A stretch of 32,712 nt of DNA, taken from the NCBI GenBank assembly GCA_022825945.1, contig JAJDVS010000089.1:1-32712 (forward strand), given 5' to 3'. The translations under genes and the position numbers were made by a program. The stretch's first letter is position 1, and every line of letters begins with the position of its first letter. This stretch comes from Pseudomonadales bacterium. Its GTDB lineage: Bacteria > Pseudomonadota > Gammaproteobacteria > Pseudomonadales > Pseudohongiellaceae. Shown piece after piece: positions 1 to 5,659 of this stretch. Under the pieces are notes generated by a model that saw nothing but the letters and a program-made list of their open reading frames with translations, was not told where the DNA came from and ran no database searches.

Positions 1-2003
1 GATGGTTCGGCTCTCGACCCGTTTTTCCGTATTTGTTCGAGGATTTCGCAGCTCCGGCCGCCAATAGGCAAATCGCCGGTCTCGTAGACGCATCGCGCCC
101 CGGACAGGTCCGGAAGTTCGGCCCCGGGGTCGCTGCGAAACCCGGCCAATTCGTCAAGCGGCGTTGTGAGGATTTGCGAGTTTTCCCCCGCATCCTGGGG
201 TGAGTGCGAAAACAGCAGGCTGTTCCGGCTCAGACTGCCGAGGGTTTCACGGCAGCGCCGGCACAGATGTTCGCTGCTTGCCGGAGACAGGCCGTCATGC
301 ACGAGCAGCAGCTTGAGCCGCGTTTCGGGAAACGCCTCCCGGCTGGCGAGATCACCGAGAAAGATCGCCGCCAAGCCGCTTTCGCCCAGTGGCCCGCGGC
401 GGTCGACAAAATCCGCCACCACGGCGGACAGCACGGTGACGATCGAAGCCTCGGCGAGATTCGCCAACGCGATTTTCGCCTCTTCCGGCGACAGGTTGCC
501 CCGCACCACGTGCATGCCGACCTGGAAGGCCTTGTCGTTCGACCAGTTGCGCAGGATTTCCGCGGCATCCCCGGCGTCCGCCATGGGGATTTCCGCAATC
601 TGGCCGCGCATTTCCGCAACGTCCATTTCCCGGGTCCAGTACAACCGCGTCAGGCCGCGGCGGGCAATGGACTCGGATTCCGGGTCCGGGCCGAAACCTC
701 TGGGCAGGTCGAGATCGGTGAACTCGCGGTCCTGGAGGTTGTCGAGCAATTCCGGGTTGCTTTCTATCCACCGGGCGAGCCTCGGTTCGGCGGCGAAAAT
801 CTCGACGATGGCGTCGAAAGCCTCCGGGCGGGAGACGGCAACCGAACTGTCATAGGCGCTCCAGTCCTCGATCTCCGGGTAAAAGCGCCTGCGCCATTGA
901 TCCACCAGCGGGTCCATCAGCCTGAACCAGCGCTTCGGCCATAGCACCACCGACATCAGATCGCCGTAGCATCCCGGCAACTGGGGCGATTCGTCGGCAT
1001 TGCGGAACTGCAGCAGGGGATAGTGCCGGCTCGCCATGGCATGATGGTCCGCGTGACGCTGCATGTTGAAGAACATCCAGTTGCTGTACTTCCAGTCGGC
1101 GCTCCAGGAATGGCGGGGCATGACCTTCTCCCAGCGTCCGTTCTCCAGACGGACCCGGCGCAGCCCGTAGTGCTGCAGATAGTTACTGATCTTCATCGAA
1201 ACAACGCAGCCATAGCCGAACAGGATGAAGACGAGCAAGGCCCAGATGCCCCCCATCCAGTAAGTCAGGCCGAACCAGAACGCCAGGCCCAGGCCGTAGC
1301 GCCAGAAGGGATTGCTGGCGTGCCAGACCGGCAGTTGCCTGCGCGCCAGCCGCTCCCGGGCGACTCTCCAGGATTGGGTCAGATTGCTGGCGATTTCCCT
1401 GGGCAGGTACGCCCAGAAGCTCTCCCCCTTGCGGGCCGATCCCGCATCGTATGGCGTACCCACCTGGGCGTGATGGACATAGACATGTTCGGTGGCGTAT
1501 TGCGGATACGAAGCCGAGGCGAGCAGGAATTCCGCAAGGCGTCTTTCCCAGGTCGTGCGGCGATGCACGAGTTCGTGGCCGACGATGAAAACCGCCTGGG
1601 CCTCGGTTACCAGAATGAGCGCCAGCAATACGTCTTCCCAGACGGCGAATGGATTGGCCACCAGAATCTGCCACATGCCGAAGATCAGCGTGGGGGGCCA
1701 CAACACCGCCCACAACCACACCGGAACGTTATGCCAGCGCAACTGCCGCTCCGGGGTCCTGGTCGGGTCCATGTTGCGCCCGTCCAGTCCGATCAGCTTG
1801 TCTACCCTGCCGCCGACGGTGGCGAAGAACAGAAACGGCGGCAACAGCCACCAGCCGCCGTACAGGATTGCGGCGAAGATCAGCGGAAATATCCCCAGGG
1901 GCAGGTAATGGGGCAGGGCGTTGAGCAGCGAGGGCTCGATGAGTCTGGGTGTTATGGCCTCTGGCAGGCTTGGCGCTCCAGTCGCCGCGCTATCTTGTGG
2001 CAT
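1..2003 (-). CDS. AlkB-like alkane monooxygenase fused to a GlnE-like (pseudo)adenylyltransferase domain, 3' end outside window
   Basis: An uninterrupted frame of at least 667 codons reads leftwards from ATG at 2003 and leaves the window. Residues 1 to about 385 are an AlkB-type non-haem diiron membrane hydroxylase: hydrophobic segments near 30-75, 95-140 and 235-265, and the three histidine boxes HELVHRR (about 140), EHVYVHH (about 170) and NMQRHADHH (about 312). The family oxidises terminal carbons of alkanes or related hydrophobic substrates using rubredoxin electrons. From about residue 395 the sequence follows GlnE: a PELLDNL segment, then LRNWSNDKAFQVGMHVVRG, then a nucleotidyltransferase-like stretch. 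The usual GKLG...SDxDL becomes GDLASREAFPETRLKL, and the later EVDxRLRP motif is not recognisable, so catalysis by this domain is unlikely. No stop or frameshift separates the parts. AlkB assignment is strong; the GlnE-like assignment rests on pattern recognition. Confidence 0.85.
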   Translation of the reverse strand, partial: MPQDSAATGAPSLPEAITPRLIEPSLLNALPHYLPLGIFPLIFAAILYGGWWLLPPFLFFATVGGRVDKLIGLDGRNMDPTRTPERQLRWHNVPVWLWAVLWPPTLIFGMWQILVANPFAVWEDVLLALILVTEAQAVFIVGHELVHRRTTWERRLAEFLLASASYPQYATEHVYVHHAQVGTPYDAGSARKGESFWAYLPREIASNLTQSWRVARERLARRQLPVWHASNPFWRYGLGLAFWFGLTYWMGGIWALLVFILFGYGCVVSMKISNYLQHYGLRRVRLENGRWEKVMPRHSWSADWKYSNWMFFNMQRHADHHAMASRHYPLLQFRNADESPQLPGCYGDLMSVVLWPKRWFRLMDPLVDQWRRRFYPEIEDWSAYDSSVAVSRPEAFDAIVEIFAAEPRLARWIESNPELLDNLQDREFTDLDLPRGFGPDPESESIARRGLTRLYWTREMDVAEMRGQIAEIPMADAGDAAEILRNWSNDKAFQVGMHVVRGNLSPEEAKIALANLAEASIVTVLSAVVADFVDRRGPLGESGLAAIFLGDLASREAFPETRLKLLLVHDGLSPASSEHLCRRCRETLGSLSRNSLLFSHSPQDAGENSQILTTPLDELAGFRSDPGAELPDLSGARCVYETGDLPIGGRSCEILEQIRKNGSRAEP

Positions 2004-2142: not shown

Positions 2143-2925
2143 ATGCATGGCAGCAAGGTTGTGGGTTACTACGACACGGAAACCACCGGGTTGTATCTCA
2201 CTGGGTGGAACCGCGACCATATCCATTTCGGACTGTTCGAACCCGGCGAATGCCCAAAGCCAAACGAATGGTTCAGGGATTCGGAAATCCATGCGCGCGC
2301 CATGGTGCGGATGGTGGAAACCACCGTGGCTCCCGCTGAAATCGAGCGGCAGCATCATGTTGTGGATGCCGGCTGCGGTGTGGGCGGAGCGGTTATCCAT
2401 CTCGCCCGGTCACGAGGCTGTCGGGTCACCGGGGTGAATATCGTCCCCCAGCATCTGCCTTTCCCCGATCACTCCGTCGATGTGGTCCTCAATATCGAAA
2501 GCGCCTGCCACTATGCCGACCGGCGCAATTTCCTGCGTGAAGTCCACCGCATTCTGAAGCCAAAGGGAAAAATCGTGGCGACGGACTGGATGGCGCGCGA
2601 CGGCTTGACCGACGTGCAATACGAAAGGTACATCGAGCCAATCTGTGAGCCTTACGCCCTGCCCAGCCTGGAATGTCCGGCCTCCTACCGGGAAATACTC
2701 GCCGAAGCGGGTCTTGAAGTTCGGGAATTCGAGGATTTTCATGGAAAAGATGCGGCCAATGTGCAAATCGTGGAAAACGCCTGCAAACTGATGGCCGGCT
2801 TGATGATCGGGGGAATACGCACACCCGAGTTGCGTCGCCTGTACGGCCAGATTCAACCGCTTCATGAAGCCTGGAGCGGCGGCTATTTTGAACTCAGGCG
2901 TTATTGCGCCCAGAAGGCGGCATAG
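2143..2925 (+). CDS. SAM-dependent class I methyltransferase, with motif II region apparently deleted
   Basis: The product (about 260 aa) has the glycine-rich SAM loop VVDAGCGVGGAVIHLA, then PFPDHSVDVVLNIESACH and an LREVHRILKPKGKIVATDW block. This is the pattern of the tocopherol/sterol/cyclopropane-type small-molecule methyltransferases. In relatives about 25-30 residues separate the strand-2 GV(N/T) segment from the LPFPD segment, including the SxxQ helix and an acidic pre-LPF motif. Here VTGVNIVPQHL runs straight into PFPD, so that stretch is missing in frame. I prefer ATG at 2143, which has AAGGA ten bases upstream and gives MHGSKVVGYYD, matching the family N-terminus; ATG at 2107 is an in-frame alternative. 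The gene is divergent from the monooxygenase. The substrate is unknown, and the shortened core may impair SAM binding. Confidence 0.8.
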   Translation: MHGSKVVGYYDTETTGLYLTGWNRDHIHFGLFEPGECPKPNEWFRDSEIHARAMVRMVETTVAPAEIERQHHVVDAGCGVGGAVIHLARSRGCRVTGVNIVPQHLPFPDHSVDVVLNIESACHYADRRNFLREVHRILKPKGKIVATDWMARDGLTDVQYERYIEPICEPYALPSLECPASYREILAEAGLEVREFEDFHGKDAANVQIVENACKLMAGLMIGGIRTPELRRLYGQIQPLHEAWSGGYFELRRYCAQKAA

Positions 2926-3880: not shown

Positions 3881-4078
3881 GGCGCGCCATGTTCATCTGC
3901 ATGACAAGGAAAGTGCAGTAGCCAATGATGCCGGCCAGGGAGTTGACTGCGCGCAAGCCAAAAGGTTAAATACCGCCCCTCCACAAGCGCCTTGCCCAGG
4001 TAATTCAAGAAGTCGGGACCGGGGGTTGGCGGAGGCCATAACTTTCGCGCCAGGGAGATGGCATGCAAGAAGTCTAAG

Positions 4079-4105
4079 GAAGCTCTAATCAAGTCAGAGC
4101 TTCCC
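4079..4105. repeat. Hairpin repeat (GAAGCTCTAATCAAGTCAGAGCTTC), copy A
   Basis: GAAGCTCTAA and TCAGAGCTTC form a 10-bp stem with one mismatch around TCAAG. A perfect copy is found at 26843-26867, directly abutting the 73-bp repeat there. Here about 110 bp separates it from the 73-bp repeat at 4216. Confidence 0.6.
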
Positions 4106-4215
4106 TGCGGCACAAGGATGTGTCGCCGAATTCGATGGGTGAAGGCAAGCGTTTTCGAAGCGCGGCCGCAACGGTACGGAGCTACGCTCCGTAACTGGAG
4201 CAAGCCATTGAATTC

Positions 4216-4288
4216 GTGAGCAAAACAAAACCACGCTTTTGTTTTGCGATAATGAAAAATTCCAGGGAGGGAGTTTTTCAGAGAATAC
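4216..4288 (+). repeat. 73-bp dispersed repeat upstream of tRNA-Phe (copy A), with extended -10 motif
   Basis: This segment matches 26868-26940 almost base for base over 73 bp. It contains an AAAACAAAA/TTTTGTTTT stem, then TGCGATAAT (extended -10 form, GATAAT at 4248-4253), then an AAAAATTCC...GGAGTTTTT partial inverted repeat. It ends five bases before the mature tRNA-Phe. Because the same orientation and gene-proximal placement recur before hemF, the repeat may supply a promoter. That role is inferred. Confidence 0.65.
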
Positions 4289-4293
4289 CTAAT

Positions 4294-4369
<76 letters not shown>

Positions 4370-4444: not shown

Positions 4445-5659
4445 TTGACTCCTGCGCGAGAATACGCTAGATTTCGTTCTCATACGTTGCACAAAAAAGG
4501 ACACAAAAAACGTGTTACAAGGCAAATTGACCCAAAACTGGTCCGTGCGATCACCGAACCCGGGTTTTACGGCGACGGCAACACCCTGTTCCTGCGGGTA
4601 GCGCCGGGCGGCTCGAAGCAGTGGGTTCAGCGGCTCACCGTACATGGCAGACGCCGCAGCATCGGTCTGGGCGGCGTGAGTTATGTGACGCTCGCCGAGG
4701 CCCGCGAGGCGACGCTGGAAAACCGGCGCGTGGCCCGCCGTGGCGGGGACCCGCTGGCCGAGAAGCGGCGGGCGAATGCGCCCCGGTTCCGCGAAGCGGC
4801 CCAAAACACCTGGGAATCCCTGCGCCCCCGCTGGCGCAACGCGAAGGTAGCCGCCAACTGGCTGCAGCAATTGGAGCGCCACGCGATGAAACGGCTCGGG
4901 GACCTGCCCGTGAACCAGATTGACCGCGAGGACGTTCTGGCTGTCCTGACGCCGATCTGGGGCAGGAAGCAGGAAACCGCCCGGCGGGTGCGCCGCTATA
5001 TCCGCACCACGCTGGACTGGTGCCTGGCCCATGGTTTTGTGGATACCAATGTGGCGGGCGACTCCATCAACGGCGCCCTGCCCCGCATGGCCTCCGTCAA
5101 GGCGCATTACAAGGCGCTTCCGTATGGGGAGGTTTCGGAAGTGCTGCAGGCGGTGGAAGCTTCGGGAGCATCCTCGACTGTCCGGCTTGCGCTGCGATTC
5201 CTGATCTTTACCGCCGCCAGGTCGGGAGAGGTTCGCGGCGCGGTCTGGTCCGAAATCGACACCGGCAAGCGCGTCTGGAAAATCCCGGGCGAGCGGATGA
5301 AGGCTGGCGCCGAACATCGCGTGCCGCTAACCGGGCCGACGGTGGAAATTATCAAGCGCGCAAAAAAGCTCCACAAAGGCGGCGATCTTGTTTTCCCTTC
5401 GCCCGTCCGCCGCGACTGTCCAATCTCGGACGCCACATTGAGCAAGCTGTTGCGCTCCACCGGCGTTGCCGGCCAGGCCACTGTGCATGGCTTCCGCTCG
5501 ACGTTCCGGGACTGGTGCGCGGATACCGGCAAGCCGCGGGAGCTTGCCGAGGCCGCGCTCGCGCACACGGTGGGCGGTGTCGAAGGAGCGTATTTCAGAT
5601 CCGACCTTTTCGAGCGGCGGCGGGGATTGATGGATGACTGGGCGGAGTATTTGACGTGA
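4445..5659 (+). CDS. Tyrosine-recombinase integrase of the island
   Basis: Up to 404 aa. The N-terminus (KLVRAITEPGFYGDGNTLFLRVAPGGSKQW) is the arm-type DNA-binding domain of P4-like integrases. A SAM-like core-binding domain follows (about 115-205), then the catalytic domain with ARSGEVR (first Arg near 258), HGFRSTFRDW (His-x-x-Arg near 348-351), LAHTVGGVEGAYFRSD (His/Tyr, Tyr near 382). All key residues appear present, so it is probably functional in excision and integration at tRNA-Phe. No in-frame ATG precedes the conserved start: TTG at 4445 or TTG at 4487 are the candidates, both weak, so low expression is expected. It lies 75 bp behind the tRNA. Confidence 0.93.
   Translation: MTPAREYARFRSHTLHKKGHKKRVTRQIDPKLVRAITEPGFYGDGNTLFLRVAPGGSKQWVQRLTVHGRRRSIGLGGVSYVTLAEAREATLENRRVARRGGDPLAEKRRANAPRFREAAQNTWESLRPRWRNAKVAANWLQQLERHAMKRLGDLPVNQIDREDVLAVLTPIWGRKQETARRVRRYIRTTLDWCLAHGFVDTNVAGDSINGALPRMASVKAHYKALPYGEVSEVLQAVEASGASSTVRLALRFLIFTAARSGEVRGAVWSEIDTGKRVWKIPGERMKAGAEHRVPLTGPTVEIIKRAKKLHKGGDLVFPSPVRRDCPISDATLSKLLRSTGVAGQATVHGFRSTFRDWCADTGKPRELAEAALAHTVGGVEGAYFRSDLFERRRGLMDDWAEYLT

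Follow-up and report, generated by a model that had tools for sequence, protein, structure and literature searches.

The window analysed here is a stretch of 32,712 nucleotides from a Pseudomonadales bacterium of the Pseudohongiellaceae (assembly GCA_022825945.1, contig JAJDVS010000089.1), and is the entire contig C28 of a 2.64-Mb assembly in 113 contigs (G000). At one end it encodes a single protein in which an AlkB-type membrane di-iron hydroxylase is joined to one half of GlnE. The GlnE half has lost its catalytic site. The gene forms a conserved part of the srp proteusin cluster of sponge-associated bacteria, i.e. a cluster for a ribosomally synthesized and post-translationally modified peptide (RiPP). 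We consider it rather probable that the protein is a membrane oxygenase that tailors the peptide during srp maturation, its pseudo-GlnE half serving for docking rather than catalysis.

The fusion frame lies on the minus strand at 3-2003 when read from ATG (or 3-2027 from an upstream in-frame ATG), the ATG at 2003 being the likely start. It is still open at the end of the contig, so the fusion protein is cut at this point. The complete gene is found in three close relatives, encoding proteins of 678, 678 and 674 aa. Their stops lie 7-11 aa beyond the position of the cut in the window, and thus nearly all of the fusion protein is visible. Two more members of the genus have longer versions, of 802 and 786 residues. 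A whole functional GlnE hidden beyond the cut is ruled out, because the relatives either stop just past it or have a single dead half. A scan of public genomes gave 178 relatives, from which 80 loci were kept; all 80 encode the fusion, with ~800 aa where complete. Merging of two genes by an assembly error, the objection raised in the initial annotation of this DNA, is excluded by these 80 independent loci and by several further genomes containing the fusion.

The N-terminal half is clearly related to AlkB. The window protein matches the sequence of the AlkB structure 8f6t with a phmmer E-value of 1e-52. The full-length model of a long-form relative (L099; pLDDT 88.1, pTM 0.83) superimposes on the AlkB structures 8f6t and 8sbb with Z of 37.7 and 35.5. 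A rubredoxin, the usual electron donor of AlkB, is encoded in nine of 11 fusion carriers tested, which fits an active AlkB. The nine histidines that are iron ligands in AlkB (PMC10113152) are invariant in 47 of 47 members, including the window. The carboxylate ligand of the second iron (Fe2; Glu271 of FtAlkB) is replaced by glutamine in 80 of the 81 members with a recognisable motif, and is glutamate in the other one; the window reads NYLQHYGL at this position. Two unfused AlkB-like proteins that we inspected (L026 and L036) also have glutamine at this site, so the change is not unique to the fusion family. In view of this replacement the protein is AlkB-like, and not a proven alkane hydroxylase.

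The fusion thus shares with the Fontimonas thermophila AlkB-AlkG (8f6t) and FtAlkB (8sbb) the fold, the nine histidines and ~30% sequence identity, together with the presence of rubredoxin in most of the carriers tested. It differs from the F. thermophila enzyme in having glutamine for Glu271, a pseudo-GlnE half instead of rubredoxin, and a setting within a RiPP cluster. The natural AlkB-AlkG fusions of hydroxylase and rubredoxin likewise have a soluble domain C-terminal to AlkB, but in the present family that domain is a pseudo-nucleotidyltransferase rather than an electron carrier.

GlnE is an enzyme of nitrogen regulation, with two nucleotidyltransferase halves in one protein of ~950 aa. 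The fusion contains one half only, joined to AlkB. The proposal of the initial annotation that a single frame joins AlkB to a GlnE-like half is confirmed by the AlkB match together with profile and structure comparisons to GlnE, both of which it had suggested. The Pfam family PF03710 scores 21.6 bits in the window protein, slightly below the cut-off of 24 bits; its relatives clear the cut-off (34.9 bits in P0007), and GlnD_UR_UTase is matched in one long-form relative. The NCBIfam model PRK14108 is matched with E 3.5e-11, the match falling in its C-terminal part. Comparison of the family profile with those of canonical GlnE gave a colinear match to the C-terminal halves over 349 columns (99.8%, E 9e-28), and a weaker one to the N-terminal halves (97.8%). 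The AlphaFold model of the C-terminal part of the window protein itself (pLDDT 85.8) has as its best solved matches the two halves of Escherichia coli GlnE, 3k7d (Z 17.1) and 1v4a (Z 17.2). Residues 373-791 of the L099 long-form model match 1v4a and 3k7d with Z of 29.7 and 27.2. The fold of the C-terminal adenylyltransferase half of GlnE (E. coli 3k7d; PRK14108) therefore extends from residue ~375 to the C-terminus. The relationship to GlnE proposed initially stands, while the extent of the domain has been corrected to the C-terminal half; the usual form of the family is ~800 aa, with a GlnD_UR_UTase-like tail that has been lost in the subclade of the window.

The catalytic site was compared by alignment of 85 family members with eight canonical GlnE C-terminal halves. 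The stretch EVDxRLRP, including its aspartate, is absent from every member. The first acid of SDxD is aspartate in three members and glutamate in 22, and the window reads TRLKL here. The second acid is mostly retained (aspartate in 59 and glutamate in 13) but is lost in the window, and the GKLGG loop is usually GDLAS. The alignment shows the loss of the three-acid nucleotidyltransferase site and the GlnE half is, on this evidence, predicted to be catalytically dead, in agreement with the loss of SDxD and EVDxRLRP noted at the outset. The domain differs from GlnE in this loss of the catalytic site, in being a single half, in its fusion to a membrane oxygenase, and in its occurrence in a genus that is almost entirely without GlnE.

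The fusion is under purifying selection. Between the window and its nearest relatives (L010 and L011) omega is 0.07 for AlkB; within the GlnE half it is 0.05-0.13 in the helical part and 0.27-0.32 in the pseudo-nucleotidyltransferase. Mean conservation across the family is 0.77 for the helical part, 0.73 for AlkB, 0.60 for the pseudo-nucleotidyltransferase and 0.59 for the tail. The helical part is thus the most conserved region, which suggests that it may be the working surface of the GlnE half; that the tail has been lost in the subclade of the window is consistent with this.

We note one other partner of the pseudo-GlnE domain, where it is located at the C-terminus of a 1529-aa frame for a resistance-nodulation-division (RND) efflux pump (L152:8858-13444, minus strand; contig C7 of G113). 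This is the only other partner found, and the idea of a widely modular pseudo-GlnE domain was rejected on that basis. The best-scoring matches in a class-wide search were mostly frames of the length of canonical GlnE, plus one further frame of 822 aa in G530.

The srp cluster, with SrpC, SrpE and SrpI, was described by Nguyen et al. 2021, as cited in PMC10858898 and PMC9426513. A YcaO gene is present in 61 of the 68 loci that have at least 3.5 kb after the fusion. It is mostly on the same strand and starts within ~200 bp, often overlapping the fusion, and its product matches the SagD-type maturase and the leader-binding domain of thiazole/oxazole-modified microcins (TOMM). SrpE-like matches occur in 60 of 89 loci, and most of the small precursors with a nitrile hydratase leader peptide (NHLP) end in LCCCW. 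This is the published core of SrpE, a sponge proteusin that is the substrate of SrpC and SrpI (PMC10858898, PMC10286304). Other neighbours include exporters of the ATP-binding cassette (ABC) type with a C39 peptidase, an NHLP-leader protein of ~433 aa, and a gene resembling tryptophan halogenases, the last in 20 of the 89 loci. The adjacency of YcaO and the LCCCW precursor show that the fusion is a conserved component of the srp cluster. The same seven of 61 genomes of the genus have both the fusion and a srp-type YcaO, for which the nominal p of 2e-9 assumes independent genomes and is an overstatement because they are related; in a sample of the order the same six genomes contain both. The loci share with the srp cluster YcaO, the NHLP precursor ending in LCCCW, the halogenase-like gene in part of the loci, and an occurrence in genomes of which most are probably sponge-associated. 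They differ in that AlkB-pseudo-GlnE is not mentioned in the srp literature searched, and in that the precursors of the window's subclade end in SCCL, SCCV or SCCM, with no C-terminal tryptophan. The AlkB-GlnE fusion was likewise not described in the literature searched; the original 2021 srp paper lay outside that search and may list the gene.

Two of the neighbouring proteins are worth describing. A 372-aa protein encoded after YcaO (L104:11759-12874 and equivalents) is present in 64 of 89 loci, and has no Pfam or NCBIfam match. The ~433-aa protein encoded upstream of the fusion (L099:5520-6818 and equivalents) combines an N-terminal NHLP leader (TIGR03793, below cut-off) with a terpene-cyclase-like domain that has a weak match to SQHop_cyclase and a DLDST motif; it is unusual for an apparent enzyme to bear the leader of a precursor. 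Steroid gene clusters have been reported from the same Ircinia metagenome-assembled genomes (MAGs). These were rejected as the setting of the fusion, none of whose frequent neighbours was recognised as a terpene-sterol core gene.

The continuation of the cluster in the window's own genome appears to lie on two contigs, C100 and C101 (L162 and L163), of 4.7 kb each and 91% identical to one another. Each aligns with the sequence downstream of the fusion in the relative G018, and contains YcaO, the 372-aa protein, a methyltransferase and an NHLP precursor end (SCCL or SCCV). The existence of two variants of one region explains the break in the contig after the fusion; they could be either two loci or two strains.

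The loci kept carry eight phylum labels, i.e. Pseudomonadota, Gemmatimonadota, Nitrospirota, Nitrospinota, Acidobacteriota, Latescibacterota, Binatota and Myxococcota. The tree of the fusion gene (a quick tree with no bootstrap) mixes these, with 19 label changes against a minimum of nine, the labels still being clustered. This supports a probable horizontal transfer of the fusion between phyla. Spread by plasmids was rejected, since no plasmid record covers 80% of the fusion protein. The names of 24 of the 80 MAGs are of the jk18x or p16x type; the name jk18x appears in work on sponges of the genus Ircinia, and p16x probably belongs with it. MAGs named SB06xx are presumably from Ircinia ramosa. 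In a further 23 of the 80 the name prefixes fit the initials of sponge species of PMC8163846, from which the assignment was inferred. Most carriers are probably known or likely sponge symbionts.

We propose that the AlkB-family membrane oxygenase would oxidise the srp precursor while it carries its leader, or else some partner molecule. The C-terminal pseudo-GlnE half would be a cytoplasmic docking domain, recruiting the precursor, the YcaO complex or both to the membrane close to the exporters. Both an active oxygenase and a docking surface are inferred, and a peptide is taken as the substrate because of the gene context only. Several observations weigh against this proposal. The glutamine in place of the Fe2 glutamate may mean that oxygenase activity is altered or lost, and no rubredoxin was found in two of the 11 carriers tested (G036 and G021). 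The subclade of the window does without the tail of the GlnE half, and there is no nearby YcaO in seven of the 68 loci. Lastly, the srp literature searched describes only thiazoline formation (by SrpC) and bromination (by SrpI), and no hydroxylation.

Other functions can be envisaged within the srp cluster. Given that AlkB acts on alkyl chains via a membrane tunnel (PMC10113152), the oxygenase could act on a membrane lipid or fatty acid, providing an acyl donor for the product or self-protection, with the pseudo-GlnE half only anchoring it to the srp machinery. The NHLP protein with its terpene-cyclase-like domain, encoded beside the fusion in many loci, would be in keeping with this. Yet the frequent neighbours include no recognised acyltransferase, their most constant members being the precursor and YcaO, and we regard such a role as unlikely. 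Alternatively, the di-iron centre might dehydrogenate the thiazolines made by YcaO to thiazoles, in place of the flavin SagB-type enzyme that is the usual azoline oxidase. The position of the fusion directly before YcaO, the altered metal site compared with alkane hydroxylases, and the lack of a recognised SagB-like protein among the frequent neighbours (no search being aimed at SagB) all favour this. But the rings of SrpE are described as thiazolines. We know of no AlkB-fold enzyme that acts on azolines, and find the idea quite improbable.

Two further explanations place the protein outside peptide maturation. Retention of all nine AlkB histidines would be expected of an ordinary alkane hydroxylase whose C-terminal passenger has no function, but the passenger is kept in every retained locus across phyla, constraint on its helical part equals that on AlkB, and the fusion co-occurs with the srp YcaO, making this very improbable. 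The initial annotation suggested that the GlnE half might sense nitrogen or P-II status, or act as a scaffold. A scaffold remains a good guess. A sensing pseudo-enzyme controlling an alkane hydroxylase would account for the fold, whose derivation from GlnE is real, but it is hardly credible in a gene that lies by YcaO in a RiPP cluster, and whose tree crosses phyla. Moreover, canonical GlnE was not found in the window's genome and is all but missing from the genus as sampled in 61 genomes, where the matches were the fusions and one fragment in G009; most have no GlnE match, whether or not the fusion is present. GlnE frames of canonical length are common in the class.

Few biosynthetic clusters in sponge microbiomes are reported to be as widespread as srp. 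If the proposed tailoring role is correct, the conserved membrane oxygenase would be a missing chemical step, and a membrane-associated assembly line is predicted. The fusion would further show clearly how a regulatory nucleotidyltransferase can be turned into a dead domain for docking, and might be the first enzyme of the AlkB family to act on a ribosomal peptide. More tentatively, it might represent a new class of RiPP enzyme, in which a re-tuned di-iron oxygenase of AlkB fold acts on a leader-bound peptide recognised by a dead GlnE half, spread horizontally across sponge-associated phyla. With the change of glutamate to glutamine at the second iron nearly fixed, the tuning of AlkB chemistry can be tested directly.

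Table 1. Features of the fusion gene and its surroundings in the window.
Feature	Position	Strand	Remarks
AlkB-type membrane di-iron hydroxylase domain, residues 1-374	882..2003	-	Sequence match to AlkB
AlkB box GHELVH	1563-1580	-	
AlkB box EHVYVHH	1470-1490	-	
AlkB box NYLQHYGL	1161-1184	-	
AlkB box QRHADHH	1041-1061	-	
Linker and GlnE helical region preceding the nucleotidyltransferase, residues 375-535	399..881	-	YPEIEDW, PELLDNL, RNWSNDKAFQVGMHVVRG
Pseudo-nucleotidyltransferase core and short tail, residues 536-667	3..398	-	Truncated at contig end
LGDLAS..TRLKLLLVHDG	291-359	-	In pseudo-nucleotidyltransferase core, in place of GKLGG..SDLDL
Contig end	1..2	.	Relative G018 runs directly on into YcaO; contigs C100/C101 of the window's genome match the continuation in G018
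S-adenosyl methionine (SAM) methyltransferase copy, divergently transcribed	2143..2925	+	Relatives present in other srp loci

The methyltransferase copy has an in-frame deletion of ~28 aa within the SAM-binding region, where the relative in G032 is intact. Elsewhere in the window a repeat of ~220 bp (4074-4296), of which this genome has dozens of copies, complete or partial, is located immediately upstream of a tRNA-Phe gene (4294-4369) and an integrase-like open reading frame (4445-5659).
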